A stretch of DNA of 64,000 nt. It comes from Flavobacterium sp. 1 (GTDB lineage: Bacteria > Bacteroidota > Bacteroidia > Flavobacteriales > Flavobacteriaceae). The notes under the pieces were generated by a model. It worked only from the letters and a program-made list of their open reading frames with translations, searched no databases and was not told the DNA's origin. Both the position numbers and the translations under genes were made by a program. The stretch spans positions 2,108,001 to 2,172,000 of the forward strand of contig NZ_PGER01000001.1 of the NCBI RefSeq assembly GCF_002797935.1, in the 5' to 3' direction. Shown here piece after piece: positions 2,541 to 58,225 of the stretch (within the stretch, counting starts at the first letter, position 1; every line of letters starts with the position of its first letter).

Positions 2541-2560
2541 CCTGTACAGTGCTGAAATAT
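2541..2560 (-). promoter_or_regulatory. Candidate regulon operator upstream of the sialidase-like gene
   Basis: On the coding strand the site reads TTCAGCACTGTACAGG. It differs at two positions from the element before susC-class promoters in this window (TTCAGCATAGTACAGG). It abuts the GH78 stop codon and sits about 110 bp upstream of the sialidase-like ATG. No good TAnnTTTG octamer lies at the 23-bp spacing seen at the other copies; CATTTTTA is there instead. This is the weakest of the four sites. Confidence 0.5.
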
Positions 2561-5320
2561 CTATTGAAACTTTAAATTCAAAGTATAAGAACCCGATTCT
2601 AAAGTCAGGACTATGTTATTGTTTTCGGTTTTATAAGAAGATGAAAATTGAGTCAGTTTTTGCTTGTTTACCATTACTGATGAAGCATTCGTTGTTGGCA
2701 AATACACTACAGCCGATGAGTTGGCCGGAATGGTAATTTTCCATTCTAAAGTGTTTTTGTTTTTCTTCCAGTCGCTTTTAATCAGTCCGTAAATCGATTC
2801 GTAAGAGGCATTTACATACGTCAATCCGGCATTGAAATCCGGTTTCATAATGATTTGCTTGAATCCCGGAGTTTCAGGATTGCTCTTGATTCCTGCCATA
2901 TTTTCGTAATACCAGATCAGTAAATCACCCAAAAGCATCACGTGATTTTGCGAATTCATTGTTGGGTCTGCGGTGTTTCCGTTCCATAATTCCCAAATGG
3001 TAGTGGCTCCGTTTTCGACCATATAACCCCAGCTTGGATAGGTTTTGTTGGAAGCCAGTTTATATGCCAAATCCCCTCTTCCGAAGTTCGTCAGCGTTCG
3101 CATCAAAAATTGTGTTCCAATAACGCCTGTGCTGATATGACCTTGTTTAGTCACTTCAACTTCGTGAACCATATTTTGGAAAACTTTGTCTATCAAATTT
3201 TCAGGAACCAGACCGAAAGCCAAAGGCAATACGTTAGCCGTTACTGTATTATTGGCGTAGTAGTTTTTTTCCGTATTTAAAAATTTGGTATTGAATGCTT
3301 TTTTGATTCTTGTTGTCAAATCATCATAATGAGCAATATCGGCATCGGCACTGGCAATTTTGGCAAACTTTTTCATAATGCCCAAAAGCTGATAATAAAA
3401 TGCACTTGATAACAATTGTCCATCCGTTAAACGGGCAGGATCTTTGGAACGAATCAACTCTAATGATTCCGGCGGAACACACCAATCACCATATTTGTCT
3501 TTATCCATTAAATCATCTTTCAGATAATTTTCTTCCATATACACCATCCATTTTTTCATAGACGGGTATTGTTTTTTGATCACTTCTGCATCGCCAAATT
3601 GTTGGTACAGCATATCGCCCACTGTGATATACGTTCCCGGCCAGGTCACATTATCACCGTAATAACGCCAAAATGCCGGCGCCACATCTGGTAATCCTCC
3701 GTCCTGTGTTTGCGAATATTTAATATCATCGAGCCATTTGGCATACAAAGTCTGGTTATCGAATAAAAAACTTTCGCCATAAGCACCCGTTGTTCTATCG
3801 CCCAACCAAGGCTGACGCTCATTTCGCTGTGGACAGTCGATTGGCATTCCTTTGTAATTTCCGCTGATGCCCCACCAGGCATTTTTAAAAATCTGGTTCA
3901 TCGTAGCATCCGAAGATTCGAAAGTTCCAGTCGTTTTGATATCGTCATACACCACTTTTCCAACGAAATTATCCAAAGTTGGTTTAATCGGAAAACCTGA
4001 AATCTCTACAAATCGAAAACCGTGGAATATAAAACGAGGTTCCCAGATTTCTTCGCCTTCGCCTTTCAAAGTATAAACATCAGTCGTTTTCGCATCACGC
4101 AAATTGGCAATGTACAGCGAACCATTAGCCTGCAAAGATTCGGCAAATTTCATTGTGATTTGGTCACCGCTTTTCCCTTTCACTTTCAGTTGCAACCAGC
4201 CCACCATATTCTGACCCATATCCAAAATATAAGTTCCTTTGGCAGTAGCTTTTATCGAAATCGGTTTTACCTCGCCCATTATTTTCATATTCGGCGTCAT
4301 CTGCGCTTCATAAAAACCGCCTGGTTCCTGAACGTATCTAGCATTTACCCAGTTTTTATTGTCAAAATTGGTCGTAGCCCAGCCTTTCATTTCCTTTCGG
4401 GCATCGTATTCTTCGCCGTCGTATTCGTTGTTGGATAAAATCGGTCCGTCAGTGGTTAATTTCCAGGTATCGTCTGTCCGGATGATGTCTTTGGTTCCAT
4501 CGGTATATTCGACAAACAATTGCAAAGCCATTTTCGGAAAACCAAAAGATTTGATTTTATACGGTTTGTAATCCTGACGCATCGCAAAAAATCGTCCATT
4601 CCCTAAAATCGTTCCCAGCATATTTTTACCTTCTTTCAATTGCGAAGTCACGTCAAAAACATTGTATTTTACGTTTTTGGTGTAATCCGTCGGAACGGGT
4701 GCCAAAACCTGATCGCCAATTTTATTTCCGTTGATGTACAACTCATACAAGCCCATTCCCATTATGTAAACTTTGGCGGATTTCACTTGTTTTTTGAGGT
4801 TGATTTCTTTTCGCAAATAGCGGGCTGACAATCTCGAATACTGGGAAACGCTGTCATCTTTCGACAATTTTTCATAGCCAATCCAGCGAGTCGATTTCCA
4901 GTCGGCATAAGTTAAAATCCCGATGCTGAAATGGGCAGTTGTAGCCGATTTGATTTCGCCTTTATTCGTAAAAACAGTTACTTTCCAAAACGCATTTTGT
5001 CGCTCGCCCAACTTTTTTCCGTTGTATATAATATTGACAGATTCGTCACTTGTTACTTTTCCGCTATCCCATAAATCAACTTTGTTCGCATTCAGATTTT
5101 CTAAAGTTGAAGCGACCATAATTTGATAAGCCGTTTGTTTTACATCGTTCACATCCGACTTTATCTGCCAGCTCAAACGTGGCTGAACCACATCAATTCC
5201 TTCCGGATTGTTCAGCATTTCGCATTGCAGATTGGTTACGCTGATTTTGTTTTGGGCTTCTGCCAAAGAAAAACAGAGCAATGCGATTAAGATGAATGTA
5301 TATAGAAATGATTTTTTCAT
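2561..5320 (-). CDS. GH78 alpha-L-rhamnosidase
   Basis: This is a full-length alpha-L-rhamnosidase of about 919 residues with a signal peptide (MKKSFLYTF start, cleavage near AEAQ). An ATG six codons upstream, at 5338, is possible but would put charged residues ahead of the signal. Domain order follows the family: an N-terminal Ig-like domain starting at LQCEMLNNPEGIDVVQPRLSW, beta-sandwich rhamnosidase domains, the (alpha/alpha)6 catalytic barrel, and a C-terminal beta-sandwich. The hallmark DCPQRNERQPWLGD lies near residue 493; its acidic residues belong to the family's catalytic centre. GH78 enzymes remove terminal L-rhamnose, which occurs in RG-I and in RG-II side chains. An HNH-type gene lies only 24 bp upstream. 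Confidence 0.93.
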   Translation of the reverse strand: MKKSFLYTFILIALLCFSLAEAQNKISVTNLQCEMLNNPEGIDVVQPRLSWQIKSDVNDVKQTAYQIMVASTLENLNANKVDLWDSGKVTSDESVNIIYNGKKLGERQNAFWKVTVFTNKGEIKSATTAHFSIGILTYADWKSTRWIGYEKLSKDDSVSQYSRLSARYLRKEINLKKQVKSAKVYIMGMGLYELYINGNKIGDQVLAPVPTDYTKNVKYNVFDVTSQLKEGKNMLGTILGNGRFFAMRQDYKPYKIKSFGFPKMALQLFVEYTDGTKDIIRTDDTWKLTTDGPILSNNEYDGEEYDARKEMKGWATTNFDNKNWVNARYVQEPGGFYEAQMTPNMKIMGEVKPISIKATAKGTYILDMGQNMVGWLQLKVKGKSGDQITMKFAESLQANGSLYIANLRDAKTTDVYTLKGEGEEIWEPRFIFHGFRFVEISGFPIKPTLDNFVGKVVYDDIKTTGTFESSDATMNQIFKNAWWGISGNYKGMPIDCPQRNERQPWLGDRTTGAYGESFLFDNQTLYAKWLDDIKYSQTQDGGLPDVAPAFWRYYGDNVTWPGTYITVGDMLYQQFGDAEVIKKQYPSMKKWMVYMEENYLKDDLMDKDKYGDWCVPPESLELIRSKDPARLTDGQLLSSAFYYQLLGIMKKFAKIASADADIAHYDDLTTRIKKAFNTKFLNTEKNYYANNTVTANVLPLAFGLVPENLIDKVFQNMVHEVEVTKQGHISTGVIGTQFLMRTLTNFGRGDLAYKLASNKTYPSWGYMVENGATTIWELWNGNTADPTMNSQNHVMLLGDLLIWYYENMAGIKSNPETPGFKQIIMKPDFNAGLTYVNASYESIYGLIKSDWKKNKNTLEWKITIPANSSAVVYLPTTNASSVMVNKQKLTQFSSSYKTENNNIVLTLESGSYTLNLKFQ

Positions 5321-5344
5321 AAGTTTTATTTTTGTCACGAAATT

Positions 5345-6043
5345 TTATCTCTTTTTTTGTCTAATTCTATCTAAAAACTCTTTTTTGGATGCAATTACAA
5401 TTGAGCATAAGTTTTTATGATATACAAAAACTCCAATAACACAAAGGGAATTTTCAACATCACCATTATCAATTACATATTCTGAATCTGTTGGATTCAT
5501 TGTTTTTATATTATACATAAAAATATCTTCATGACCAGAAATCAAAAATTCATCATTTTGAACAACATAATCATAAAATAATTTCCCAATACCCATTAAT
5601 TTTTCATTTTCTTCATCCCCTTCAGCAATTATTTCAACTTCAAAATCTTTTGGTAATGGTCTTTTATATTTTGCATAAAAGACACCCTTGAAATTTTTAA
5701 TATGTAGTTTTTTTAAATCATCATAACTAAAATTGACACTTAAAACTTTGCCGTCTGAAAAATGCAATCTATCAGCCCAATTTTTTTGACGCATAATAGA
5801 TTTAATCGATTTTCTAGTCAGTTCAATTTGATCATCGTTATGATTATTCATTACTCCAATTGCATCTCTTATTTCTTGATCAATTTGAGAGTATTGATTA
5901 TTACAGTCAAAACAGGCTGGAACAACTAATCTATTAACTTTATACTCATTTCCATAACCAACAAATAAATTTTGTGCTGGTATATGTTCCCTTGTTATAT
6001 TTTCTTCTGGAAATTCATTTCCACAGTTATAGCATAATTGCAT
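5345..6043 (-). CDS. HNH endonuclease-like protein inserted in the pectin locus
   Basis: The protein is 232 residues long with no signal peptide, unlike its neighbours, so it is probably cytosolic. The N-terminus has a CYNC pair (Cys4, Cys7), then REHIP (His20) and a second CFDCNN motif (Cys44, Cys47, Asn48). This is the pattern of an HNH/zinc-ribbon nuclease fold. The remainder, to residue 232, is not recognised. It lies between GH78 and an all-alpha glycosidase on the same strand and has no evident link to pectin. HNH proteins of this type occur in restriction or defence contexts and as orphan genes. The function is not established, and the spacing suggests cargo inserted into the locus. 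Confidence 0.6.
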   Translation of the reverse strand: MQLCYNCGNEFPEENITREHIPAQNLFVGYGNEYKVNRLVVPACFDCNNQYSQIDQEIRDAIGVMNNHNDDQIELTRKSIKSIMRQKNWADRLHFSDGKVLSVNFSYDDLKKLHIKNFKGVFYAKYKRPLPKDFEVEIIAEGDEENEKLMGIGKLFYDYVVQNDEFLISGHEDIFMYNIKTMNPTDSEYVIDNGDVENSLCVIGVFVYHKNLCSIVIASKKEFLDRIRQKKR

Positions 6044-6137
6044 ATTTACTTTTTTAATTAAGTTTTATCCAAATTTGGATCTGTAAATATGTGTAAAAAT
6101 TAAGTATACAAATTCTACAGATTAGCAAATTAAATTT

Positions 6138-7706: not shown

Positions 7707-7728
7707 ATTCTATTTATTTTAATTTTTT

Positions 7729-7820
7729 GGGCGTGACCCTTCGTGAAAAACTTCGGGTCGTGCTGTACGTTCCCGCTTCCCGATGAAAAATCGGGAGAGC
7801 TCCACTGCCATCACTCACGC
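7729..7820 (+). repeat. Dispersed GGGCGTGACCC...CACTCACGC intergenic element
   Basis: The element opens with GGGCGTGACCC at 7729-7739 and closes with CACTCACGC near 7820. Inside is a hairpin, TCCCGAT at 7778-7784 pairing with ATCGGGA at 7790-7796. A second, inverted copy is at 11102-11216. The shared termini and G+C-rich core, unlike the A+T-rich surroundings, mark a mobile or REP-like intergenic element. It lies between the all-alpha glycosidase and GH95. Confidence 0.65.
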
Positions 7821-7840
7821 GGACACAATATTCGGTTTTA

Positions 7841-7873
7841 AGACCTGACAGGTTTTTGAAACCTGTCAGGTCT
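7841..7873. repeat. Perfect 15-bp inverted repeat (AGACCTGACAGGTTT type)
   Basis: AGACCTGACAGGTTT at 7841-7855 pairs perfectly with 7859-7873 around a 3-nt loop. It lies 12 bp beyond the GH95 stop codon. There is no T-run after it in the direction of transcription, so it is not a classical intrinsic terminator. A close relative occurs at 25003-25035 and a decayed one at 62198-62230. Confidence 0.85.
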
Positions 7874-7885
7874 AATCGCATTCAA

Positions 7886-10357: not shown

Positions 10358-10398
10358 ATTTGATCTGTTTTTTGGAGCAAACTCTCCAATTATTTTTT

Positions 10399-11216: not shown

Positions 11217-11221
11217 AACTA

Positions 11222-12649: not shown

Positions 12650-12670
12650 TTTAGTATTGTTGAGATTTGC

Positions 12671-21812: not shown

Positions 21813-24800
21813 CTAATTTTTCTTCACTACGAATAGTACTTTTTCTTTGATTTCATCTTGTGGAATTACGACTTGTTTTCCTCCGCTGATATTTGCTTTT
21901 TTGGTGATAGTTCCATTGGAAGCATTGATTGTGCAAACTTCGAAAGTTCCTTTATGATTGGATAAATCGATAGAAACATCCTGATCGTTTTTCAGATAAA
22001 AAAGATAGGCCTTGCCTTTATTTTCTAATCTCCAAAGGGTGTCTGAAAAAGTAGTTCCTTCTGCAAACTTCATACCAGCAAGGGCAGAATGAAAGGCAGA
22101 AAGTTCAATTTTTGGAACATTTGCCAATGAAGCTCCTCCCATTAATGCCGGCCATCCAAATCGTGGTGCTCCCATTGTGGAATATAAGACTGCTTTTTCC
22201 GGATATTTTTCACGGTATTCGCGAACTGCACGATACACCTGATCGTCGGTTTCTTTTCCGGTTTTGATTTTACGGGCGTGCTGGCGTGGTGCAAGATTTT
22301 TTCCGCCTTCAGGTGCATACAGCGTTCCATCTTCTTTGTAGTACCAATATCTGATGTCAATTACATCAACGGTTTTTGCTCTTGCTTCGTCATTTAAGAT
22401 TGCATCCTGAACATCTTTTGTGGCACTTAAAGCGATTTTGGATTCGTTTTGATTTGTCTTTTCGTAATTGGCAATCACATCAATCCAAAATTGCATGAAA
22501 CTTAACGGACCTGTATATTCGGCACTTGTGAGCTGTAATACGTTGGCATTATCTTTAAAATTTTCCAGATTTTTTTCGATGAATGCTACGTGCAGTTTTC
22601 GAATGTCTGGATTTTTTACATCATAAAATTGCTCGGCAAGGAAAATCCTTTTATCGCCTGCGTAAGGCGGTGGTTCCGGCAATCCTGTCGTGTTTATATT
22701 ATTCGCTGGACGCCACGGAGAACTTGCCCAATGTGCTCCGGCTTCTAAAATATTATGCTGAAAATAGGCTTCGTTTAGTAATATCTTATTTTTTTGTCCG
22801 GCTAATTCTGCAAAGGTTTTCAATCGCTTCCAATACCAGGCATTATATTTGGTCAAATCGTATTTACTCAAATGATCCCAGGCAATTCCCTGTCCGCTTC
22901 TGTCAAAAGGCTGTTCGTAAAAAGGTGCCCAGACATCGGCATCGATTCTTCGAATGCGTTCGTGATCGGCCATTCTTTGTTCGTACCACAATCCATAATT
23001 ATGGTCTATCGCCGATTTATTGTTTTCTACTAAATAATTTACGGTTTCTTCCAGATTATCGGTATAACCAACTCCGTAATGTCCCGGAACAAATCGGGTA
23101 ATGTGCGGTCTTGATTTTGCAATTTCAGATTCACGCAAACTGCCTCTCCACCAAGGTACATCAACAACTTCTCCGGTAATTACTCCTTTTGAAGTGGTTA
23201 GTAATCCGTTGGTTATTGTAATTTTATCAGTATTGGTATTCGTAACTGCATCTAGTTTTGCTTCTTCAATGCGTTTCGCTTTGGCATAATCAATCGCAAT
23301 TGGATTTCGAGTTGACGATTTGCTAATAAACTCTTTTAAAGTTTCATTTAATTTATAAGCTTCGGCTGTTAAAGCTGTCGCTTGTTCTATCGTCGGGCTT
23401 GAAGAAGGCTCCGAACCTAAGTCCATTATTTGAGCGTCCATTGGTAATTTGCCCAGACGTTGTTCCAATAAAGCATAAAATAAACTTCTTGGGCTGATGT
23501 GATTGTTCACGTCTTTCCAATGTCCGTTTCCTGCCCATTGTGCCCAAACTCCAAACGCCCAGTTGTTGGCTGTTGGGGGACTGTAATTTTCAATTTTAGA
23601 TGCCGATGTTTCCCAGATGACACTATTGGCCACGTTCCAGCCTAATCCTCTTCCGTCCTGTTCTTTGTTTTTAAAACTGATGGCATTTCCATCAATTAAA
23701 GAAACGTCAAAGAGAATTCCGGTTGCCCAGCTTCCAACAGATCCGCTGAAACTGTACGACTGATGTGATTCGCATTGCAAAAAGACATTTGGTCCTGCAG
23801 TGGCGTAACCTCCGACCACAAAATCATTGTACCCGAATTCAGAATAACATCTTTGAAATAAAGTCTGCTGTCCTTCAGTATAAAATGTATTTCTTCTAAA
23901 AGATGCGATTTCAGAAATCGGGTTTAAAGCCAGACAATCTTCGACAGTAATTCTTTTGGCGGTTTTTAGAATAGAAACCGCACCGCCTGCAAACTGTTCA
24001 AAATTGACTTGTCGTACCCAAATGTCTTCTGCATTTTCGATAGAAATTCCAGTCCATCGGTGCTGTTCGTCTTTTGGATTTGTGGTATCATAATCAGATT
24101 TTAATGTCAGGTTTTCAACACCTGAATTATTAATTCGGCCTGACCAAACATAACTTACTACAGTTGATTTTGATAATTCTTCGTCTAAAGCGTTTGTTAA
24201 AGGAGCATCAATCGTAATTTTATTTCCCTGAACATTTGTAATTTCCCTATCGGCACGAATAACGAAATCATCAGCTTTCCAGCCAATCCATCCACTTTCT
24301 CCACCAAAATCATTCATGGACAAAAGATCAATCCAGTTTTTTGTAATAGGTGTATTGATTACAATATGGTCTCCTTTTTTGAGATTAGTTCCGTTTTTCA
24401 CAGTTAAAATTGTTGCTCCTAATGGTGTATAATTAGTCTCTAATTGAAAGGTTTCCTTAAAAATCTGATTATTGATTCCTCTTATGTTGACAATTGCTTT
24501 TCTGTTGATTGAAGTTCCTAAAAGTGTAGTTCCACCATTACTGGAGCCACTGCCTCTTATTACAATTCCGCTTTCTGAAATATTGATCTCACCCGAAACT
24601 TTGAAGATTCCTTTGTCTAAAAGCACCGTTCCTTTAAAACCATTTTTATCAGCTTTTAATTTGGCAACATAATCTATAGCAGATTGAATTGTTTTTGTGG
24701 CATCTCCATCAACATGCGGTACAAAAACTTTAATGGCTACGTCATCAGCAATTGCAACGGATGATACACGATAACCAGCATACGAAAAATCAGGAATCTG

Positions 24801-24968
24801 ATTTCCTTTTGCATCAATTGTCAGCTCTAGTTTTCCATCTTTAGATTTTGTAATATCTGGAAATGTGTTTTGTGCCTTACTGATATTGGCACTAAAGAAA
24901 ACAACAAAACAGGATAAAACGAGTAAATCCTGTTTTGTTACTATTTTTTTGAGTTGAATAAAATTCAC
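21813..24968 (-). CDS. Giant secreted beta-helix protein with a DUF6298-like C-terminal half
   Basis: This 1051-residue protein has a signal peptide (cleavage near ISKAQ). The first half is a pectate-lyase-3-like right-handed beta-helix, recognisable from the DATKTIQSAIDYV opening near residue 88 and the repeated GISIENAEDIWVRQVNF and ITVEDCLAL turns. The second half, from about residue 600, contains long acidic-aromatic stretches (YGLWYEQRMADHERIRRIDADVW in part, KYDLTKYNAWYWKRL) and looks like a separate catalytic-type domain, possibly a TIM barrel, of the kind called DUF6298. No activity is known to me. It is directly upstream of the apiosidase and downstream of a PL1 gene in the susC-led run, so it is a strong candidate for an undescribed pectin enzyme. 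Confidence 0.6.
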   Translation of the reverse strand: MNFIQLKKIVTKQDLLVLSCFVVFFSANISKAQNTFPDITKSKDGKLELTIDAKGNQIPDFSYAGYRVSSVAIADDVAIKVFVPHVDGDATKTIQSAIDYVAKLKADKNGFKGTVLLDKGIFKVSGEINISESGIVIRGSGSSNGGTTLLGTSINRKAIVNIRGINNQIFKETFQLETNYTPLGATILTVKNGTNLKKGDHIVINTPITKNWIDLLSMNDFGGESGWIGWKADDFVIRADREITNVQGNKITIDAPLTNALDEELSKSTVVSYVWSGRINNSGVENLTLKSDYDTTNPKDEQHRWTGISIENAEDIWVRQVNFEQFAGGAVSILKTAKRITVEDCLALNPISEIASFRRNTFYTEGQQTLFQRCYSEFGYNDFVVGGYATAGPNVFLQCESHQSYSFSGSVGSWATGILFDVSLIDGNAISFKNKEQDGRGLGWNVANSVIWETSASKIENYSPPTANNWAFGVWAQWAGNGHWKDVNNHISPRSLFYALLEQRLGKLPMDAQIMDLGSEPSSSPTIEQATALTAEAYKLNETLKEFISKSSTRNPIAIDYAKAKRIEEAKLDAVTNTNTDKITITNGLLTTSKGVITGEVVDVPWWRGSLRESEIAKSRPHITRFVPGHYGVGYTDNLEETVNYLVENNKSAIDHNYGLWYEQRMADHERIRRIDADVWAPFYEQPFDRSGQGIAWDHLSKYDLTKYNAWYWKRLKTFAELAGQKNKILLNEAYFQHNILEAGAHWASSPWRPANNINTTGLPEPPPYAGDKRIFLAEQFYDVKNPDIRKLHVAFIEKNLENFKDNANVLQLTSAEYTGPLSFMQFWIDVIANYEKTNQNESKIALSATKDVQDAILNDEARAKTVDVIDIRYWYYKEDGTLYAPEGGKNLAPRQHARKIKTGKETDDQVYRAVREYREKYPEKAVLYSTMGAPRFGWPALMGGASLANVPKIELSAFHSALAGMKFAEGTTFSDTLWRLENKGKAYLFYLKNDQDVSIDLSNHKGTFEVCTINASNGTITKKANISGGKQVVIPQDEIKEKVLFVVKKN

Positions 24969-34300: not shown

Positions 34301-34762
34301 TCCAGCAACCTGTCCTCTCAATGCATCAGATAAGTTAGTTACTGGTAAATTCTCAAGATCCGCGGCCTTTATTGTTGCAATAGCTCCAGTAAGATCTTTC
34401 TTTTTCTGGCTACCATAACCTACAACAACAACACTCTCTAATTGATTAGTGTCATCTTGTAATTTTGTATTTAAAACAGTACGTCCTGACAAAGGTATTT
34501 CCATTTTTCTCATTCCTATGAAAGAGAAAACCAATGTTGCATCACTCTTTACATTAATCTGATATTTACCGATAAAATCAGTAGTAACAGTATTTTTTGA
34601 TGATTTTTCAGTTACGTTTACACCTGATAAAGGCATTCCTGCATTATCAGTAACAGTACCTGTGACTTTAATTTGACTGACAGCAGTTTGAGCATAAGTA
34701 ATCATACTCATCAGTACAAATAAAATAACACTACATCTTCTCACTACTAGTGTTTGTTTCAT
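31379..34762 (-). CDS. SusC/RagA-family TonB-dependent outer-membrane transporter
   Basis: This is an 1127-residue transporter with a signal peptide (cleavage near AVSQ, about residue 30). The domain order is a carboxypeptidase-regulatory-like domain at about 31-105 (VTGTVTDNAGMPLSGVNV), a TonB box region (VVVVGYGSQKKKDLTGA) near 111-127, a plug domain to about 235, and a 22-strand barrel to the C-terminus ending in FNISF. It imports pectin oligosaccharides together with SusD. The upstream region contains the strongest promoter in the window, with TTCAGC-like operator and TAAATTTG at -7, so this gene heads the second large operon of the locus. Confidence 0.95.
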   Translation of the reverse strand: MKQTLVVRRCSVILFVLMSMITYAQTAVSQIKVTGTVTDNAGMPLSGVNVTEKSSKNTVTTDFIGKYQINVKSDATLVFSFIGMRKMEIPLSGRTVLNTKLQDDTNQLESVVVVGYGSQKKKDLTGAIATIKAADLENLPVTNLSDALRGQVAGLSVTSGSGRPGDAGTISIRQSFGFGKDANSGVPLIVIDDMVQVDAATGLATMETFNRLDPSEIESMTILKDASAAIYGSRASQGAVVIRTKKGKSGKAKFSYSSQFAVNDAISHTKTMSAYEFGVFNNRFLTGALVPGNVIDPKVLFSAKELEEMKGLDYDWLEKAWKPAIQQKHTLNISGGTDNITYFAGATRFTQDANLGYQKYEKWNYRTGITAKIANNLDFSASMSGNSGFVDKAFTKASGSVGGYDTGAGEQADYDFLVHMPKFVPWQTTVDGKEYYMSPFPNTNKNFGSANANNNIAGWNYFANMNNGSHQTTDDASYNFTTSLNYKVAGIKGLSFKGTFARTQNSSNAEQIQLPYDLARITNYQLQDNHLASAAYPSATIKNPEVGGIIDYVIETNIRNSRVYYNTSFSKSTQMDFFANYDRTFGRHQVSAMFGAERSESNYATTRLAYFNTPKDYQGDWRTAGTVDTGNSTAFKGNNATMSYFGTLNYSYQSKYLAQFLIRSDASTKFAPEHYWGTFPSLQLGWVVSKEDWFANNVSAVNFFKLRYSIGKTGKDNLPPWKWIQFYDLTPNKGYTFGSGGGQLGSSVTPKIVPNRETAWDSTLKNNFGIDMAFLENRLQFNADFYYDISKDMITDLSSAIGVPVSVGGGFAEENYATVNAWGSELSISWSDKVKGNLSYDVGVNFGYGDNKIVKYPNQGNLLPSNNASREGYSSGFNPVWGFKTWKGTSTGDGILRTDADIANYWKYLTDNATAVGGVPSYLGNGDPTKIQKGSMAFQDVAGTLQNDGTLTGPDGQIIDKNDYTKLAKSSRTYTINTNLGIKYSGFSLKTQIATSWGGATFVDLVSQSTSSASNMWAREPFWNDMYGTDNPNGKYPNLAAAGATSTSDFWQLDTFRCVVRNLTLTYDIPKQVFVNTKIQNISLGVTGNNLWDLYNPYPGHYRNMYDDSGVGYPTLRTWSINFNISF

Positions 34763-34866: not shown

Positions 34867-34917
34867 CAAATTTATAATGATACATATACTCACGCATCCT
34901 GTACTATGCTGTATTTA
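34867..34917 (-). promoter_or_regulatory. susC promoter: regulon operator 23 bp upstream of a -7 element
   Basis: On the coding strand the operator reads TACAGCATAGTACAGG (34913-34898), and 23 bp downstream of it stands TAAATTTG (34874-34867), matching the Bacteroidota -7 consensus TAnnTTTG. The -33 TTTG is absent, as expected for an activator-dependent promoter, with the operator taking its place. The same operator and spacing occur at 56214-56254 and 58175-58225. The ATG of susC is 105 bp downstream of the -7 element. The 34763-34866 leader is A+T-rich and holds no gene. Confidence 0.75.
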
Positions 34918-39784: not shown

Positions 39785-42112
39785 TTAATTTAATTTCATT
39801 TTTTCTTCTGTCGATTTATTTAACAGATTGATTATATCTTTTTTCCTTTCTTCAGGAATTACTTTTAAAACTTTCAATTCGCCGTTTACAAGTTCAGCCT
39901 CAACGGTGGTATTTTTTGTCGCGTACAATTTGAAATGAACATTCCAGTCTTTTGGCCAAGCCGGAAAAAGATAGATTTTCCCGTTCGCTTCCTGCAAAAG
40001 CATTTCCTGCATTCCAATCATTCCTGAACCTCCCCAATTATGGTCGGGAACCCAATCATAACCCGGACCCCAAAAGGCTGGGAATCTTCTATCGGAATTC
40101 ACCATTTTCAACAAATTGTATTTTTTTGCTTCTTCGGTTAATCCCAAACGGGCCGAAAAAATATTGTCCTGTTTCCAGCCAATATGGCTTCTAAATTTAA
40201 TCGCATCTGTATCGTATTTCCAGGTATTCAAAGCCGTTTCTAAATCTGGTTTTCCTACGCCGTAAATTCCCCACGGATAAACGGAATACAATTGTGGTAC
40301 TTCGGAATTATTGATTCGCTCCCAAGATTTCGCCGGAAGCAAAACTTTATGATTTTCAATTTGACCAAAATTTAGAGGTGGAATTCGTTTTTGAAAAGCT
40401 TTCAAATATTCCACTTCTTCTTTGGATAATTGTGTTGAAGAAAGATTTAAAAGCTGTTCTGTGATAACCTGCAAAGCAGAAATAGTACTATTAGAATTAT
40501 TAGCCATTTTATACGTTTCCGCACCCGAGCCTGGAAATAAAATTAATTTTCCATTTCCGTCCAATGTTTTTCTACCTCTTTGTTTCGCTAAATATTGATA
40601 ATGTTCATCAAAAAATCGAAGACAACTGATGATAAAAGAATTGTATTTCTGAATGTCTTCGCCTGCAAATTCTTTCTGTTGCAACATCATTTGGCAAAAC
40701 TCAAAAACGGTATCCCATTCGTATTCCAGCCAGGCGTTGTATTCCATTCCCGGATCATAATCAGCTGGACGTTTCCATTCGTATTCGGCTGGATTGGGTA
40801 ATCCGAAATTTTCCAGTTGTTCTGTAAACGATGCTCCACCGTGTTTCCAATAGACCTGCGAACGCAATTCTGCATTTTTTTGAAGGCTCAAATAATAATC
40901 CAATTGCGATTTCATCATATCAAAATCACCGCTTTTTACCATCGGAAAATAAACCAGTCTTTGATTTTGAGCAGTCATTGTTCCACCTCCCCAATTCCTG
41001 AAATCAGGAGTAAAATTCAAATCCGGATTAGTAAAAACAGGATCAACTGTAAACAATCCGCCGTTGAATTTGGTTGGATATTTTCCGTATGCATTACAGC
41101 CTAGCATATAACGGAACAATTGATAATTCTGCCCAATTTGATAAACAGAATCTTTGGCTGTCGAATTGCTTTTTTGGGTATAAATAAAACTGCGGTTCCA
41201 GAAATTATTCCACCATTTTATCGTATTTTTTTCTGCTTGTTTTGATTTGATTTTATAGTCTGAAATTTGATTTTTCAAACCTTTTTTCCAAGTATTTATA
41301 TCAGATTGATTCGTGTGTAAATGAATTTCCAGAGATTGTTTTTTGGAAGGTTTTATACTCGAAAGACTGAATCCTTTAAAATCTGTATTTTGATATGTCC
41401 CTGAATAAGTTCCGTCAGGTTTCAAATTATCGCCAGTCATAAATCCCCCAAAAGTTAGATTCGCCAACGGATTCAGCATTTGATCTTTAACCGATTCCAT
41501 TCTTTGCTGTTTTACCGCAACATCAAAAACGGTTTGTTGTCTGTTTCTATGATAAAATTGAATACCATTATTTTCAAATGAAATTGAATCTTTGAATGTT
41601 ACGATTTCTCCTTGTGGCGCCCATTTATACGAATTAGCATTATTTGCTTTTCCTTTGGAATCACGGTTTTTATGACGCCAGCTTTCATAAGAAGCCGTCA
41701 TTTTCACAGGCGTTTTACTTTCCAAATCCAAATGAATTACGGGTTTAAAAACATCTACCCAAAGTTTGATTTTAGTATCCTTCTGCCCAATCGAAATATA
41801 ACCGTCTTTCAAAACCAATTCTTGTTTAAAACCTTCGTTATCCTTAAATGGATTTGGTGTTAACGTAACTTTTAGACGACCTAATTTCAATAAAGTATTA
41901 TGCTCATCAAAAGTGCCAGATCGGGAAAAATAAAAGTACAAATCGCCTTTTTCTACCCAGACATTCAAACCAATATCGCCACCTCCCAAAGGCATAGATT
42001 CTGATGAATTGTTACTTTGCGTATTCCAGATTTGATTGTAATTTTCGAGCACGGGAATTTGCGCTTTAACTAAAAGCGTGAAAAAGAAAAATATGTAAAT
42101 TGTATATTTCAA
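39785..42112 (-). CDS. DUF5703/GH95-like (alpha/alpha)6 glycosidase of unknown activity
   Basis: This 775-residue secreted protein (signal ending LVKAQ) begins like GH95: a beta-sandwich with ESMPLGGGDIGLNVWVEKGD near residue 38. It continues with a helical barrel containing YMLGCNAYGKYPTKFNGGLFTVDP near 335, ENFGLPNPAEYEWKRPADYDPGMEYNAWLEYEWDTVFE near 430 in part, and a GYDWVPDHNWGGSGMIGMQEMLL end. This fits the DUF5703 group. Its reaction is not known to me. It is 6 bp from the PL1 start, so the two are probably translated together. In context it should attack a side-chain linkage that the assigned enzymes leave. Confidence 0.6.
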   Translation of the reverse strand: MKYTIYIFFFFTLLVKAQIPVLENYNQIWNTQSNNSSESMPLGGGDIGLNVWVEKGDLYFYFSRSGTFDEHNTLLKLGRLKVTLTPNPFKDNEGFKQELVLKDGYISIGQKDTKIKLWVDVFKPVIHLDLESKTPVKMTASYESWRHKNRDSKGKANNANSYKWAPQGEIVTFKDSISFENNGIQFYHRNRQQTVFDVAVKQQRMESVKDQMLNPLANLTFGGFMTGDNLKPDGTYSGTYQNTDFKGFSLSSIKPSKKQSLEIHLHTNQSDINTWKKGLKNQISDYKIKSKQAEKNTIKWWNNFWNRSFIYTQKSNSTAKDSVYQIGQNYQLFRYMLGCNAYGKYPTKFNGGLFTVDPVFTNPDLNFTPDFRNWGGGTMTAQNQRLVYFPMVKSGDFDMMKSQLDYYLSLQKNAELRSQVYWKHGGASFTEQLENFGLPNPAEYEWKRPADYDPGMEYNAWLEYEWDTVFEFCQMMLQQKEFAGEDIQKYNSFIISCLRFFDEHYQYLAKQRGRKTLDGNGKLILFPGSGAETYKMANNSNSTISALQVITEQLLNLSSTQLSKEEVEYLKAFQKRIPPLNFGQIENHKVLLPAKSWERINNSEVPQLYSVYPWGIYGVGKPDLETALNTWKYDTDAIKFRSHIGWKQDNIFSARLGLTEEAKKYNLLKMVNSDRRFPAFWGPGYDWVPDHNWGGSGMIGMQEMLLQEANGKIYLFPAWPKDWNVHFKLYATKNTTVEAELVNGELKVLKVIPEERKKDIINLLNKSTEEKMKLN

Positions 42113-47463: not shown

Positions 47464-50912
<3,449 letters not shown>

Positions 50913-50969
50913 CTGTGTCTTATTTATTTTGTGGTTATCAAACCTATCAGGTCTAAAACGCACTATATC

Positions 50970-52091: not shown

Positions 52092-52114
52092 TTCAAATTT
52101 AATTTGCTTCAATG

Positions 52115-52321: not shown

Positions 52322-52327
52322 ATCTTT

Positions 52328-54007
52328 TTATTTCAATTCTTTCAATCGGGATTCCATTACCTCTTTGTTCAATTTCACTTTTACCATTCCTGTTGGGTGA
52401 AATCTTTTTTTCAGATCGATGGCGTTGTACACGATGGTATAAACGTCATTTTCTTCCGGAATTAAACAGAGTGGCGTTCGCATAATATCCCACCATTTAT
52501 CAACTTTGGTTTCTATGGGCAGATAGTGTGCTTCTCCCCAATTGATTCCGTCTTTCGAAAGTGAATATCCAATCATATTTGGTAAATGATGTCCCCAGCC
52601 TTCAGGACCTCCATCAAAAATAGCGATGTACAAACCGTTTGGCAACTGACTCACAATCGGATTCTCAACAAATTGCGGATGGATTGTTTTTATCGGTTCC
52701 AAACCTTTGTTTAAGCGTTTCCACGGACCTTCGAGACTATTTGATTCTGCCAATGCCACAAACCAGCCTTTCCCTGATTTCCTCGGATAATCTGCCCAGG
52801 AAGCAAATGGATAGGCTCCGCTGTAAAATCCGAAATATTTATCTCCAACTTTATACGGAAAAAAAGAAGCTACTCCCTGACGTCCTTCCCAAGGCTGAGA
52901 ATCCAAACCCGGTTCCATAATGATGCCCATATCTTTGTACGGTCCGCCAATTCCATTGATACCTTCGACAATGGATTCACAACGCCAGATTCTTCCGAAA
53001 GAGTGATTCGGTTCTATTTCTTTGTGAACGGTGTAGGCTAAATAATAGCCGTACCATTTGTTTGCTTTTTCATTAAAAACCGGCATATACGACCAAATTG
53101 CCGAACGTCGGTCGTTCATCGGATTATCGTCTTCGGTAACGGCATAAACACCGCTGGCCTGATAAATCGTTGATTCTCTTTTCCAGTGAATGGCATCTTT
53201 ACTCGTCCAATGTCCGATTTTAGTTTTGACACGATCGTAATAATAGTCGACTCCTTTTTCACCTGCTCTTTCGGTTGGAAACATATGATAAGTATCGTCT
53301 ACTTTCACTACTCTTCCACCTTCAAAACCTCCCTGAATATCTTCGGTTCCGGGCATTCCTTCGTCAATCACGGCTTTGTTTTCTCCGCCTATGATTTCGA
53401 AAAGCGGTTTCTCATCTGAGAATCCTTCAACTATATATGTTGGATTCCATAGTTTTCCGTCCGGGAGTTCTGCATTTTTGAATTCCAGTTTTTGAGAAGC
53501 TTTTACCACTCCTAAAATGGCGAATAATCCTTTTCCCGGATTAATGGTTTGTGTTCCATTTGGATACGCAATCGCATAAACATTTACTGGCGCTAAACCG
53601 GTAACCGTAACTCCGTTTTTAAGAATCAGAGTGCCGTTTTCTATTGCATTTGATTGGAGGTATTCTTTGTTATTAGCTTCCTGAAATACGCCAATTAAAA
53701 CCTGAACCGGTTCTTTGAATTTTAGTTTTAAAGGTGCATTTGTTCCGTTTTTATATGTTGATAAAGGAAGTTCAACTCCTGTTAATCCTTGCAATTCGGG
53801 AACAAGTCGAACAATATTGTGTTTGCTCCCCGAAAATACGTGAGCATATTGAGTTGTTTTGAATGTTTTGTAATTCGAATTTACAACTTCAAAAGAAGCT
53901 GATTGCCAAGCCGAATTTTTTACGGCATCCATTTTTTGGCCTTGACCCGAAAACTGAAAGACCAAAATCAACAATAAACCTAATATGTATTTATTTTTTT
54001 GTATCAT
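52328..54007 (-). CDS. Secreted two-domain propeller glycosidase-like protein
   Basis: This 559-residue protein has a signal peptide (ending SGQGQ). Residues 25-175 form a beta-sandwich-like N-terminal domain (FKTTQYAHVFSGSKHNIVRL). A five-bladed propeller follows from about residue 215, with GGFEGGRVVKVDDTYHMFPTE, GHWTSKDAIHWKRES, RRSAIWSYMPVFNEKANKWYG, and a late DKWWDIMRTPL strand. It is GH43-like in fold, but I cannot assign the family. Its start overlaps the stop of the upstream GH78-type gene by 17 bp, so the two are translationally coupled. Together with the 373-residue propeller next door it is one of several unassigned propellers. Confidence 0.55.
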   Translation of the reverse strand: MIQKNKYILGLLLILVFQFSGQGQKMDAVKNSAWQSASFEVVNSNYKTFKTTQYAHVFSGSKHNIVRLVPELQGLTGVELPLSTYKNGTNAPLKLKFKEPVQVLIGVFQEANNKEYLQSNAIENGTLILKNGVTVTGLAPVNVYAIAYPNGTQTINPGKGLFAILGVVKASQKLEFKNAELPDGKLWNPTYIVEGFSDEKPLFEIIGGENKAVIDEGMPGTEDIQGGFEGGRVVKVDDTYHMFPTERAGEKGVDYYYDRVKTKIGHWTSKDAIHWKRESTIYQASGVYAVTEDDNPMNDRRSAIWSYMPVFNEKANKWYGYYLAYTVHKEIEPNHSFGRIWRCESIVEGINGIGGPYKDMGIIMEPGLDSQPWEGRQGVASFFPYKVGDKYFGFYSGAYPFASWADYPRKSGKGWFVALAESNSLEGPWKRLNKGLEPIKTIHPQFVENPIVSQLPNGLYIAIFDGGPEGWGHHLPNMIGYSLSKDGINWGEAHYLPIETKVDKWWDIMRTPLCLIPEENDVYTIVYNAIDLKKRFHPTGMVKVKLNKEVMESRLKELK

Positions 54008-56195
54008 TTTTTAAAGCTTTATAGCTGATTTGATAATCCACATTCGGTTGGACCGTCAATTGGTATTTATTTTTGGCCAATTCCGTAATCGTTCCCGAAT
54101 TGGTTTTAGGCTTACTTTGACTTTCGAAAACCAATTTCCCTTCGCCTTCGGATGCTTTTACTTTAATTTCTTTGGTACTGCAATATACGCTTACTTCTCC
54201 TTTTGGCGTTGGCACTTTTCCTTCCATCCATTCCAAACCACCAAGATTTGGTTTGATTTCATATTCGGAATAACCCGGTTTCAAAGGTTTTACTCCTAAA
54301 TAATATTTTCCCAACAAATAAATCGGGCTCGCACCCCAAGCGTGACAAAGACTTTTCCCAAATTCTCTTCCGTACATCGCCAAATGTTCTGCTCCTTTTT
54401 TATTCGGATTGTATTCTTCCCAAAATGTTGTAGCACCCAAATTCAGCATTCCGCCCCAATAGTCTTTCATTTGTTTCAACACATAACCCTGTTCACCCAT
54501 CGCACACAAGGATTCCAACTCGTAGAAACGCATATAAGGCGTGGTGATTTTTTGAATTTTATCATTCAACAACACCGAAGATTTAACCTGTTGTTTTTGT
54601 GCTTCGCTAAAATAATCAAAGAAAATGGCAAACATATTGGCATAACGTGTTACGTTTTCGGTTTGTTTTCCATCGACAAAACTGTGTACCAAAGCTCCTT
54701 TTTCGGGATTCCAATATTTGTCGAAAATCTTGGTTTTCATTTGAGCACCCAAATCTTTGTATTTAACCGAACCCGCATCGTCACCCGCAATTTTGGCACA
54801 AGTCGTCATCGCTTCAAGGCTTCGAGCCAATAATAATTGTTCGAAACTTACTTCGCCTTTTTTGCTCAAACCATCTGCCCAATCGATAAAAATCCAATCG
54901 CCCGACATTCCCTGCATCATTCCGTTTTCATTTCTTCGCGATAGGCAATATTCCATCAAGGATTGCATTCTTGGATAAAATTGTTTGATAAAAGTGGTGT
55001 CGCCCGTGTATTGGTAATAGTCGTAAATCCCCAAGAACCAATAAAAAGTATAATCCATAATGGTATTGATGTGCGCCGTAACCGGGTCTTTTCCTCTCAA
55101 AGCCAATAAGGTTCTTTCGACAGTCGGCGAATCATTCGTCAAATAATAATTCATCAAATAACTTTGGTACGCATCACCCGACCAAACCCAACGGTCTCTT
55201 TTGATTCCGTCGATAAAAAACTCTCTCGTATTCAGATGAAACGTGTATTTCGCCACATCATAAATTTCATTGATTTGATTGTCCGAACATCGGAAACCGC
55301 CTTGGTCTTTGACATCGGCATATTCGTATAACATATTTACGGAACCAATAGTCACTCCCGAAGAAGGTACAATCTGCACATAACGGAACGCTTTGGAAAG
55401 TGCCATCGTTTGGTCCTTTGGCGAAGCATTATCCACTTCGATGTAATCCAAAGTCATACAATTGTCTTTGGAAAGTGCTTCTTCTTTGGACTCTCCGTAA
55501 TAAATATTTACCGTTCCTTTGCCTTGCAATGCATTCAATTTGATGAAACCAAAAGTCTCTTTGCCAAAATCATACAAACTCCCATCATCTGATTTCACGA
55601 CACTTACCGCATCCATTTTTTTGACTGGCAAGGCAAATTTGGACGGTGAATTATTGGCATCGTTCAAATTCCAAGAACCTGCCAACAGCCAAGTCGTTCC
55701 TGATTGGTCTGAGGTTTTACCTGTTTCGTCAATCCATTCCTTATCTTCAAATGTAACTAGCCAAGTATTGTCCGATTTAACGGTTTTTCCATTAATGAAA
55801 ATCGCAGGAACCGAAACCTGATTATAGACTTTTAAACTCAATTTGTGCTTTCCGGCAGGCATTGTAAATTTCTTTGGAAAACCAAATAAAGCCTGACCGT
55901 CAATTTTAATATTATAAGTTCCTTCGACCGCAATGGCTACTTCTTCTGGACTTGTCAAATTAAAATCTTTATGAAAATCAATCAAATTATAAAAGGTGTC
56001 CATTTTCCAAAAAACAGGAAAAAAGGAACCTCTATCAGTTCGACGGTTTTGCATTTGATTCGCCAAATTGATTTCGAAATCACCGGGATACCAAATCCAA
56101 GTCGCAGGCTTATTTTCCTGAGCATTCATAAAAGAAGAAGAAAACAAAACAATAAAAACAACTAATTTTTTAAAATTCAGAAAACGATTTCGCAT
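53991..56195 (-). CDS. GH78-type alpha-L-rhamnosidase, third copy
   Basis: I place the start at 56195 (MRNRFLNFKKLVVFIVLF...NAQ); an ATG at 56213 lies directly next to the promoter octamer. The protein, about 734 residues, is shorter than the other two. It begins with ATWIWYPGDFEINLANQ, a rhamnosidase N-terminal domain, then a sandwich, and an (alpha/alpha)6 barrel with FIDGIKRDRWVWSGD near residue 330. This is the equivalent of the DCPQRNE hallmark but belongs to the subgroup with a changed sequence. The C-terminal sandwich ends in DYQISYKALK. It heads the first operon and is preceded by the regulon operator. The promoter and first codons were copied to 58065-58235. Confidence 0.85.
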   Translation of the reverse strand: MRNRFLNFKKLVVFIVLFSSSFMNAQENKPATWIWYPGDFEINLANQMQNRRTDRGSFFPVFWKMDTFYNLIDFHKDFNLTSPEEVAIAVEGTYNIKIDGQALFGFPKKFTMPAGKHKLSLKVYNQVSVPAIFINGKTVKSDNTWLVTFEDKEWIDETGKTSDQSGTTWLLAGSWNLNDANNSPSKFALPVKKMDAVSVVKSDDGSLYDFGKETFGFIKLNALQGKGTVNIYYGESKEEALSKDNCMTLDYIEVDNASPKDQTMALSKAFRYVQIVPSSGVTIGSVNMLYEYADVKDQGGFRCSDNQINEIYDVAKYTFHLNTREFFIDGIKRDRWVWSGDAYQSYLMNYYLTNDSPTVERTLLALRGKDPVTAHINTIMDYTFYWFLGIYDYYQYTGDTTFIKQFYPRMQSLMEYCLSRRNENGMMQGMSGDWIFIDWADGLSKKGEVSFEQLLLARSLEAMTTCAKIAGDDAGSVKYKDLGAQMKTKIFDKYWNPEKGALVHSFVDGKQTENVTRYANMFAIFFDYFSEAQKQQVKSSVLLNDKIQKITTPYMRFYELESLCAMGEQGYVLKQMKDYWGGMLNLGATTFWEEYNPNKKGAEHLAMYGREFGKSLCHAWGASPIYLLGKYYLGVKPLKPGYSEYEIKPNLGGLEWMEGKVPTPKGEVSVYCSTKEIKVKASEGEGKLVFESQSKPKTNSGTITELAKNKYQLTVQPNVDYQISYKALKNDTKK

Positions 56196-56213
56196 AAAAA
56201 TATATTTTGGCAA

Positions 56214-56274
56214 TAAAGATAAGTGTTGTTTTTACATTTTACATCCTGTACTATCCTGTACTATGCTGAAATAA
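56214..56274 (-). promoter_or_regulatory. Promoter of the GH78-led operon, with a duplicated half operator
   Basis: The coding strand carries TTCAGCATAGTACAGG (56270-56255), then a second ATAGTACAGG (56254-56245). The -7-like TATCTTTA (56221-56214) stands 23 bp after the second copy and 33 bp after the full one. The extra 10 bp is one DNA helical turn. The copy at 58175-58225 lacks it. The ATG at 56195 would leave a leader of only about 15 nt. Confidence 0.72.
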
Positions 56275-56303
56275 AAAAATGCTCCCGATTTTGGGAGCAT
56301 TTT
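56273..56303 (-). terminator. Intrinsic terminator of the PL9 gene
   Basis: AAAATGCTCCC at 56276-56286 pairs with GGGAGCATTTT at 56293-56303 around a 6-nt loop. In the minus-strand direction seven T follow. It lies 67 bp beyond the PL9 stop codon and touches the operator of the next operon, so it insulates that promoter from PL9 transcripts. A half copy of the stem is present at 58228-58235. Confidence 0.82.
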
Positions 56304-56369
56304 GAGTTTTATTAATAGCTATGAATTCACAAATTGTTTTTAAAAATCATTTTGTTCCTAATATTATCT

Positions 56370-57884
56370 CTAAACTTTAATAATATGTTTAATAATTTTA
56401 TTTGTAGAATTTGTTACAGTAAGGATATATTCTCCTGATGGAAGATTTTCTAAATTTAACAGGAGTGTTTGTTCATTTGCAGTTTTAGCAGTAATTAATT
56501 TACCTGACAAATCAAATAATTGAATTACAGCTCCTTTTGCCATTTCATTATCTAATTCTATTGTAAGGATATTTTTTACCGGATTCGGATAGTAATTTAA
56601 TATACTACCAGAGTTCAAATCTTCTATAGTATCCGAAGATATCTCAGTATTTATTTTTTTACTGGTTGTATAGTTACTTTCTGAATAACCTAAATCAGGA
56701 TTACTGCCAGAATAAGAAAGACCTACATTAGTTCCTTTGTCTATCAAATCGCTTCCCTGAACCAATTTAAAAGGCAAATTACCCGGAAGGTCACCATTTG
56801 ACTGTCTTTCGCCAATAGCAAGTGAAGTATTGGTACTTGTAAAATCGGAGAAATTTACAGTGACACTTAAATTCCACGAATTGTTTTGCTCCGTGGCGTT
56901 TGATATGGATATGGTTCCGGATAATGAAATATTATTTTTGAAAATATGTTTTTTTCCGGATTGTACCGGATTACCAAAGCCAAAATTTATATTATTCCCA
57001 TATCCTGTACAATTGTATACCGTTATGCTTCCGGTATTGTTATTCTGATCGAATCCTTTTTTTGGGTGACCTATAGCAACACATCTGGTCAGTACATTGT
57101 CTGCCGGAACTGAATTTCCTCCCACTTTAAAACCATTTCCGTTTCCTGTAAATCCTCCATAATTCCATACATCTACTCCATTTCTGATAGCCCAGCAATT
57201 TTCAAAAGTTACCTTTTGTGTACTATCGAAGCAATCGTATCCGTCATCTGAATTTTCCCATGCACGGCAGTTGATGAATTTATTTCCGGGACCTTGTGTT
57301 TGTTTTGGGCCAAAACCATCAGCCATACTTCCCTTTTTTTTAGGATCATAATTCCTGTAAGCATCGCAGTTCTTTACCGTTGTATTAGAACCTCCTTTGT
57401 TAATTTCTAAACCAGTATTACGATTGTTATAAAAAGCACAATTTTCAAAAGTAGTATTGGCGCCTGTTACATAAGCTCCTTGATATCCGGCTCTTGTAAT
57501 GGCAATTCCTTTAAAACTCCAGTAAGAACCTGTAATACTAAAACCGAATGAATCTTGTACCCATTCCTGATCCGGAAACGAAAAATCTATTATGGCCTTT
57601 CCGTTATCTACACATTCCACCTTAATAGGACTTGCGGAAGTTCCTGATTTTGTGAATGAAATAGTGTTTTTAGCACCGGCACTATACGCAATTGTATAGG
57701 TTCCGGCTTGTAATAAAATGACATCTCCGGCAACTGCTTTGCCAACAGCGGTTTTAAAATTCATTGCGTTAGAGAAACTTGAACCTGAATTGGAAGCATT
57801 TCCAGTTGGTGTCACGTAATAGGTCGCTGCTGAAACTGATCCCGAAACTAAAAGTGACAGCATAAAAATGTAGATTTTTTTCAT
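56370..57884 (-). CDS. PL9 pectate lyase with type IX secretion signal
   Basis: The start at 57884 (MKKIYIFMLSLLVSG) gives a good signal peptide; an ATG at 57908 would add 8 residues. The protein, about 504 residues, is a right-handed beta-helix. Asp189, Asp213, Asp214, Asp217 and Lys253 have the same spacing (24, 1, 3 and 36) as the calcium ligands and catalytic lysine recalled for Dickeya Pel9A. This supports PL9 strongly. The last 75 residues are a type A sorting domain (NYYPNPVKN, GKLIT, GEYILTV, IIKHIIKV), so it is exported by the T9SS and probably anchored or released at the surface. It cuts polygalacturonate by beta-elimination. It lies between two copies of the GH78 promoter. Confidence 0.92.
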   Translation of the reverse strand: MKKIYIFMLSLLVSGSVSAATYYVTPTGNASNSGSSFSNAMNFKTAVGKAVAGDVILLQAGTYTIAYSAGAKNTISFTKSGTSASPIKVECVDNGKAIIDFSFPDQEWVQDSFGFSITGSYWSFKGIAITRAGYQGAYVTGANTTFENCAFYNNRNTGLEINKGGSNTTVKNCDAYRNYDPKKKGSMADGFGPKQTQGPGNKFINCRAWENSDDGYDCFDSTQKVTFENCWAIRNGVDVWNYGGFTGNGNGFKVGGNSVPADNVLTRCVAIGHPKKGFDQNNNTGSITVYNCTGYGNNINFGFGNPVQSGKKHIFKNNISLSGTISISNATEQNNSWNLSVTVNFSDFTSTNTSLAIGERQSNGDLPGNLPFKLVQGSDLIDKGTNVGLSYSGSNPDLGYSESNYTTSKKINTEISSDTIEDLNSGSILNYYPNPVKNILTIELDNEMAKGAVIQLFDLSGKLITAKTANEQTLLLNLENLPSGEYILTVTNSTNKIIKHIIKV

Positions 57885-57946
57885 AAGTTGTGTTTTTTTG
57901 AGTGACACAAGATACCTATGGTTTTTTATAAAAATATTGAATTAAT

Positions 57947-58174
57947 TCAATGGTTTTTGTAAAAAATGATTTTGATTGGAAAATTATGAAAACAATAAGA
58001 ATAGGATTTTAGCGATAAATTTGAATTGTTTGTGGGTACGAGTTTGAAGTTCGCACGAGCTAGAGCAGGCTTATTTTCCTGAGTAAATAGAAATGAAGAA
58101 GAAAATAAAATTATAAAAACAAATAATTTTTTAAAATTTAAAAATCGATTTCGCATAAAAATATATTTCAGCAA
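57947..58174 (-). pseudogene. Duplicated 5' fragment of the GH78-type gene
   Basis: The frame starts MLKYIFMRNRFLNFKKLFVF, nearly identical to the beginning of the gene at 53991-56195 (MPKYIFMRNRFLNFKKLVVF), up to ENKPA. It then diverges into unrelated sequence (LARANFKLVPTNNSN). The DNA homology extends from 58065 to 58235 and matches 56104-56284 without gaps, except for one 10-bp tandem repeat there. It is therefore a truncated copy, not a working enzyme. It might still be translated as a short leader. Confidence 0.8.
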
Positions 58175-58225
58175 TAAAGATAAGTGTTGTTTTTACTTTT
58201 TACGCCCTGTACTATGCTGAAATGA
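58175..58225 (-). promoter_or_regulatory. Second copy of the GH78 promoter, now upstream of PL9
   Basis: The operator TTCAGCATAGTACAGG (58221-58206) stands exactly 23 bp upstream of TATCTTTA (58182-58175), as at 56245. It is followed by the truncated GH78 fragment and then, about 290 bp on, the PL9 start codon. I infer that it drives PL9. No separate promoter was recognised between the fragment and PL9. Confidence 0.7.

Follow-up and report, generated by a model that had tools for sequence, protein, structure and literature searches.

The window analysed here is a stretch of 64,000 nucleotides (positions 2108001-2172000 of the 5.35-Mb single-contig genome of Flavobacterium sp. 1) that covers a pectin locus in which a 16-mer, TTCAGCATAGTACAGG, recurs upstream of several genes. 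These 16-mers are probably, in our view and with some reserve, the operators of one GntR/LacI-type sugar-sensing transcription factor that activates a rhamnose-linked regulon. The proposal is supported by the sites themselves, their fixed spacing from the promoter, their conservation in other genomes, the way in which sites and regulator gene occur together, and the fold predicted for the sensor domain.

A sequence-only reading of the window had placed four copies of the 16-mer on the - strand, and all four are present: without mismatch at 56255-56270 and 58206-58221, with one mismatch at 34898-34913, and with two at 2541-2556. They are joined by a fifth copy with two mismatches at 56245-56260 (-), which overlaps the 56255 copy by 6 bp and is shifted from it by 10 bp. 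A scan of the window with up to three mismatches yields these five matches against 0.28 expected, and none of 100 shuffles gave five. The unit of the operator is a 10-bp direct repeat (CAGSAYNNNNCAGGRY): in nine sites of the host genome, units 1 and 2 agree on average at 6.9 of 10 positions, and a palindrome check on nine host-genome sites returned a best palindromic fraction of 0.38-0.62. Three units, TTCAGCATAG.TACAGGATAG.TACAGGATGT, stand at 56241-56270 (-) ahead of the operon led by a gene of glycoside hydrolase family 78 (GH78), and two units at each of the other three window sites, namely TTCAGCATAG.TACAGGGCGT at 58202-58221 (-) ahead of the gene of polysaccharide lyase family 9 (PL9), inside a duplicated promoter segment; TACAGCATAG.TACAGGATGC at 34894-34913 (-) ahead of the susC-led unit; and TTCAGCACTG.TACAGGATAC at 2537-2556 (-) ahead of the BNR sialidase-like gene.

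An octamer resembling a -7 box follows each of these operators at 23 bp, counted from the 3' end of TACAGG to the octamer: TATCTTTA both at 56214-56221 (-), behind the lower repeat of the GH78 operon, and at 58175-58182 (-), behind the PL9-side operator; TAAATTTG at 34867-34874 (-), behind the susC operator; and CATTTTTA, which departs from the consensus at one base, at 2510-2517 (-), behind the operator of the BNR gene, whose relatives mostly carry TATTTTTA at this distance. The 23-bp gap had been claimed for three of the four original sites; it stands at 34898 and 58206, whereas in the GH78 operon the copy with this gap is the lower one, at 56245, and the quoted copy at 56255 sits 33 bp off; the octamer of the 2541 site is one base off. 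Perfect TAnnTTTR octamers are found at gap 23 for 34898, 56245, 58206 and the susC gene of locus L007, and octamers with one base off for 2541, rhaT, a GH43 gene and oiaX; the mean score over these eight own promoters is 5.12 of 6, a value that none of 5000 shuffles matched at any gap, and 17 promoters from other genomes score 4.5 to 6. To the eye, all eight own promoters lack the TTG of the -33 element at its expected place, -33 to -31, that of oiaX carrying a TTG displaced by 2 bp. Given that the sigma-A -7 box TAnnTTTG of F. psychrophilum covers -12 to -5, as stated in a passage of PMC9723704, the operator would end near -36. The activator-like placement suggested by the sequence-only reading thus agrees with what is found, with the operator just upstream of -33, the spacing fixed and the -33 TTG missing to the eye.

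Across the whole genome, a slightly degenerate form of the 16-mer has 24 matches with up to two mismatches versus 10 for the reversed pattern, and its four zero-mismatch matches all lie inside the window. A composite pattern made of the repeat, the 23-bp gap and the octamer gives 13 perfect and eight one-mismatch matches, against three for the reversed pattern (up to one mismatch). Twelve of the 13 perfect matches head rows of polysaccharide, rhamnose or apiose-type genes, and no perfect match ends more than ~115 bp from where the following frame starts; the one on the PL9 side precedes a leader, PL9 itself following ~270 bp further. In the window the targets are susC, GH78 and the PL9-side leader; elsewhere they are oiaX, GH2, GH43, GH106, three susC-type TonB receptors, rhaT, and a fasciclin lipoprotein heading a susC-susD row. 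The thirteenth match (4938756) stands ahead of a secreted multi-domain protein of 1205 aa with lectin-like and fn3 domains, which had been taken from its N-terminus for a PL1 pectate lyase, an assignment dropped as no such Pfam match was found. Thus, the shared operator and the carbohydrate-gene regulon proposed earlier are upheld, and the many unrelated intergenic copies that were to speak against them did not appear; what has to be given up is the confinement to the pectin locus, beyond which the regulon extends. Among the one-mismatch matches three are plausible (the window 2541 site, 4771400 before a SASA esterase gene, and 4774381), and five (1821220, 1938355, 3276334, 3484055 and 4956627) look like chance, three of them in open frames, one 322 bp from a gene and one before a small membrane-protein-like gene. 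A match at 1066529, inside a coding frame resembling a hybrid two-component system (HTCS) protein, was judged a coding coincidence.

Outside the window, the operator is present at rhaT (L025), followed by rhaEW, rhaI- and rhaB-like genes and lactate-utilisation-type proteins; at a second susCD locus (L026), which includes a rhaM mutarotase; at the GH43 gene (L027); and at an operon (L028) encoding an OiaX-like RuBisCO-like protein and an OiaK-like kinase (best NCBIfam models, under strict cut-offs). The last operon is likely involved in apiose-type acid-sugar breakdown, apiose being a sugar of rhamnogalacturonan II (RG-II). The segment behind its operator (L028:9605-12884) also holds a racemase-family gene. 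Tandem sites of a second tier, in which the units are CAGGAYRC-like or looser and a good octamer lies exactly 23 bp away, were observed at L026:4312, L026:4133, L026:15399, L028:14687 and L251:4820, and may belong to the same regulator. Near the GH43 gene, ~0.9 kb from its operator (2209631), a frame for an AraC-type helix-turn-helix (HTH) with one in-frame TGA (G000:C1:2210506-2210745, +) has the look of a decayed regulator.

The regulator is likely the GntR-type protein encoded at 4833349-4834386 (-) of the genome, divergently from rhaT, rather than an AraC or hybrid two-component protein. As the sequence-only reading had anticipated, it lies outside the window, where no transcription regulator, AraC/HTCS family matches included, was found among the 31 proteins scanned. 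The protein combines an N-terminal GntR winged helix (PF00392, residues 15-78, 47.2 bits versus a cut-off of 27) with a C-terminal periplasmic-binding/LacI-type sugar domain, the fold of which is predicted. In 80 loci from named genomes, the best 80 of 488 and picked by the GntR protein alone, a strict operator lies upstream of the GntR gene, at most 1.2 kb away, in 75, including a Flavobacterium johnsoniae strain (L203), and 73 of these 75 have TTATTTTA at gap 23; the reversed-pattern control across the 1.13 Mb of these loci found no match. Looser tandem sites with the octamer at 23 bp, counted with no control, are present in four of the other five. When 71 distinct rhaT promoters are aligned, the mean top-base frequency is 0.96 in the site and 0.99 in the octamer, as compared with 0.61 in the 40 bases upstream. 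Furthermore, the strict motif occurs in 27 of 29 genomes of the genus that encode a close relative of the regulator versus one of 92 that do not. The operator was found at 27 of the 30 RhaT loci of the genus that were read, and in 23 of these 27 the GntR gene is divergent from rhaT; moreover, two of the GntR clusters that lie apart from operator-less RhaT loci (G117 and the second G066 copy) possess looser tandem sites at gap 23. Other candidates are less likely: around each of the GntR paralogues at 1466083, 3842946, 2197391 and 1971892 (~19 kb each) the best site reaches a position weight matrix score of 10.5 versus 26-34 for the training sites, and for a 385-aa AraC-type frame at 4738807 the site is absent in the 19 kb from 4738000.

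The sites are also retained, to different degrees, in other genomes. The 2541 site has counterparts in 11 of them, ahead of a gene that shares 80-91% identity with the BNR gene; the 34898 site has the counterpart TACAGGACAGTACAGGATAG in G092, ahead of a susC that occupies the corresponding place in a related locus (identities: susC only 34%, DUF3826 71%, DUF6298 59%); and the 56255 site has the counterpart TACAGGATAGTACAGGGTAT before a 64% identical gene in G102. A scan of the family detected the strict motif in 43 of 299 genomes, with 78 matches (nine in the own genus) versus five for the reversed pattern. Of these, 28 new loci (L138-L165) were read: 19 sites are intergenic, counting L146 and L150, where the overlap involves merely an alternative start of the target, and 17 of the 19 have an octamer score of at least 4 at 23 bp (L141 and L154 score 2), whereas the nine inside coding frames all score 3.5 or less. 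The genes behind the intergenic sites encode PL11, GH88 and GH31 enzymes, two GH78 enzymes, two RhaEW proteins, a sulfatase, TonB receptors, ThuA and proteins without a telling family, L164 having no clear downstream gene; the two rhaEW loci adjoin a GntR gene whose product is 70-74% identical.

For the 58206 site no counterpart was found among the loci read. It lies in a segment (58065-58244, -) that repeats the promoter of the GH78 gene together with the start of its signal peptide, 56104-56292 being the other copy; ~180 bp align with a score of 229 against 44 for the best of 200 shuffles, and the identity of the 16-mers at 56255 and 58206 is therefore by descent. PL9 apparently gained its promoter by duplication. 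A vestige of the copied segment, a short broken frame with the GH78 signal peptide, persists upstream of PL9 at 57947-58156 (-), and between PL9 and the GH78 operator a GC-rich hairpin followed by a T run (56273-56303, -) is likely the terminator of the PL9 unit.

These observations can be accommodated in a mechanism in which the GntR protein would occupy two or three 10-bp half-sites (CAGSAY/CAGGRY) that are arranged head to tail and reach down to about -36, with L-rhamnose or an intermediate or product of its breakdown as the predicted effector. The protein units would sit on one face of the DNA, adjoining the place of sigma region 4, and could recruit RNA polymerase at sigma-A promoters in which the -7 box resembles TAnnTTTG and the -33 TTG is lacking. 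One sugar signal might then turn on the RG-II/RG-type pectin locus of the window and at least one other susCD cluster, along with rhamnose catabolism and the apiose-type acid-sugar operon. We infer binding by the GntR protein, the effector, and activation over repression, the last because the spacing is rigid and the -33 element is absent. A more far-reaching version of this proposal, to which we give an even chance, is that in Flavobacteriaceae a GntR/LacI sensor acts as a promoter-locked activator on tandem half-sites ending at -36, and is the master switch that joins extracellular depolymerisation of RG-I and RG-II to cytoplasmic catabolism of rhamnose and apiose, in place of the AraC/HTCS logic of Bacteroides.

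Several observations weigh against this interpretation. The two exact 16-mers of the window count as one event and provide no independent evidence, and the spacing cases 56245 and 58206 are likewise a single duplication. Four of the eight own promoters have an octamer that is one base off, and a rival position scores 0.5 higher. The second-tier CAGGAYRC-type sites could belong to another regulator or a paralogue. The species compared are related, such that the p-value of co-occurrence overstates independence; the operator-less RhaT loci L088-L090 have a nearby GntR gene elsewhere (57-69% identical), and in G025 the 17 kb around a 69% identical GntR contain no site at 16 of 20. In other genera, single sites with an octamer also precede a xylulokinase-like gene with no GntR gene within the 19 kb read (L250:9745, G384) and a gene for an extracytoplasmic function (ECF) sigma factor (L156, G346), targets that misfit a plain rhamnose regulon. 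Repression, moreover, is the usual mode of GntR proteins. In addition, these proteins are described, in a passage of PMC4494728, as binding mostly to palindromes.

The main rival explanation retains the same GntR protein and sites, but lets the protein repress, or play a dual role, from an operator that blocks polymerase contact at about -35 until the sugar releases it. Such a role would be in keeping with the mode familiar from GntR and AraR proteins, with an operator that adjoins -33, and with the divergence of the GntR gene from rhaT in the 23 of 27 loci, as in many auto-repressed pairs. However, a repressor needs no exact spacing, and yet the octamer scores 4.5-6 of 6 at 23 bp in all 25 listed promoters save for the upper 56255 copy, being kept even where the operator sequence has diverged; the eight own promoters, moreover, lack a TTG at -33 to -31 (that of oiaX being 2 bp off), and we consider repression rather improbable. 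Still less probable is that the sites are bound by an AraC-type or hybrid two-component activator, with the GntR gene a mere neighbour. In its favour, HTH_18 is matched 48 times in the host genome, 12 times within open frames longer than 900 aa, and the two HTHs of an AraC monomer could read two units 10 bp apart. This was also the guess of the sequence-only reading, but it finds no support: the published motifs of Bacteroides HTCS and AraC rhamnose regulators have a period of ~21 bp, as described in passages of PMC3878776 and PMC3870299, versus 10 bp here, the operator goes, in 75 of 80 loci, with the GntR gene beside rhaT, to which it is tied by position and co-occurrence, and the 31 window proteins scanned contain no match to these families.

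The constant distance to the -7 box, and the one site of another genus that precedes an ECF sigma-factor gene, could be explained if the repeat were the upstream element of a specialised sigma factor. This is very unlikely given that the -7 box resembles the ordinary sigma-A type TAnnTTTG (PMC9723704, in the passage cited above) and that two or three tandem units linked to one GntR gene misfit a -35 hexamer. Least credible of all is the notion that the 16-mer has no function and arose by chance or as part of a repeat family: two of the four copies do come from one duplicated segment, but specific placement and conservation across many genomes, with reversed-pattern counts near zero, contradict it.

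With respect to the genes behind the operators, the first gene of the GH78-led operon (53991-56213, -; ATG near 56195) encodes a GH78-like alpha-L-rhamnosidase, and the PL9-like beta-helix protein with a type IX secretion system tail is encoded at 56370-57908 (-), the susC-like TonB receptor at 31379-34762 (-), where it is the first gene behind its operator, and the BNR_2 sialidase-like protein at 1286-2431 (-). Pfam matches in the locus include GH78 (three), GH106, GH95, apiosidase, BT_1020-like, GH127, GH2, GH28, PL9-like, TonB receptor and SusD, a set which we take to be that of the Bacteroides RG-II loci. In the right-edge gene (62238-63956, -) a single frame encodes a beta-helix/GH141-like part and, at its C-terminus, an L-rhamnose mutarotase (rhaM) domain; DUF6298 and DUF5703 proteins (21813-24968 and 39785-42112, -) are candidate new pectin enzymes of the regulated locus; and an HNH_5 endonuclease-like open reading frame (5345-6043, -), lying between GH78 and other enzyme genes, is unlike its neighbours.

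In our judgement, how pectin loci are regulated has been charted more fully for Bacteroides than for Flavobacteriaceae, and the present analysis yields an operator, candidates for its regulator and inducer, and a list of targets. With the composite motif, orphan loci might be linked to rhamnose-containing polymers, and the case bears on whether a GntR-type protein can activate from a fixed position. If the proposal is correct, pectin digestion and the use of its sugars may be switched on together.

A literature search, with subscription papers outside its reach, found neither an account of the operator nor one of a GntR protein that regulates rhamnose genes in Flavobacteriaceae, which is weak evidence of absence. 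The strings "gntr" and "flavobacteri" are absent from the main text of PMC3870299, and "gntr" and "motif" from that of PMC5306329. Published rhamnose regulons are under AraC, DeoR or LacI proteins according to a passage of the former, and in Gramella flava rha genes are clustered with pectin genes according to one of the latter.

Among known systems, AraR of Bacillus subtilis likewise combines a GntR winged helix with a LacI-type sugar-binding domain; unlike the protein proposed here, it is named an arabinose repressor, and its regulon differs, as do the tandem direct repeats and promoter-locked spacing found here. AraR also controls the use of a plant-wall sugar, and its operators are palindromic, a feature that the present sites do not share. 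The Bacteroides regulons of RhaR (AraC family) and HTCS proteins resemble ours in serving rhamnose catabolism or rhamnogalacturonan polysaccharide utilisation loci, in the same phylum and with direct-repeat motifs, but involve an AraC-type protein and a period of ~21 bp (passages of PMC3870299 and PMC3878776) rather than a GntR-type protein and 10 bp. DeoR-family RhaR has both a rhamnose regulon and two imperfect direct repeats with a period of 10-11 bp, although it belongs to another protein family and its Rhizobium member is termed a repressor, again in a passage of PMC3870299. NanR, FarR and NagQ provide examples of GntR winged helices on direct repeats; the passage of PMC4494728 that describes them makes no link to the control of rhamnose or polysaccharide utilisation loci. 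Thus, a GntR/LacI-type sugar regulator is as such known, and it is the form of the operator, its placement and the regulon that are unusual.

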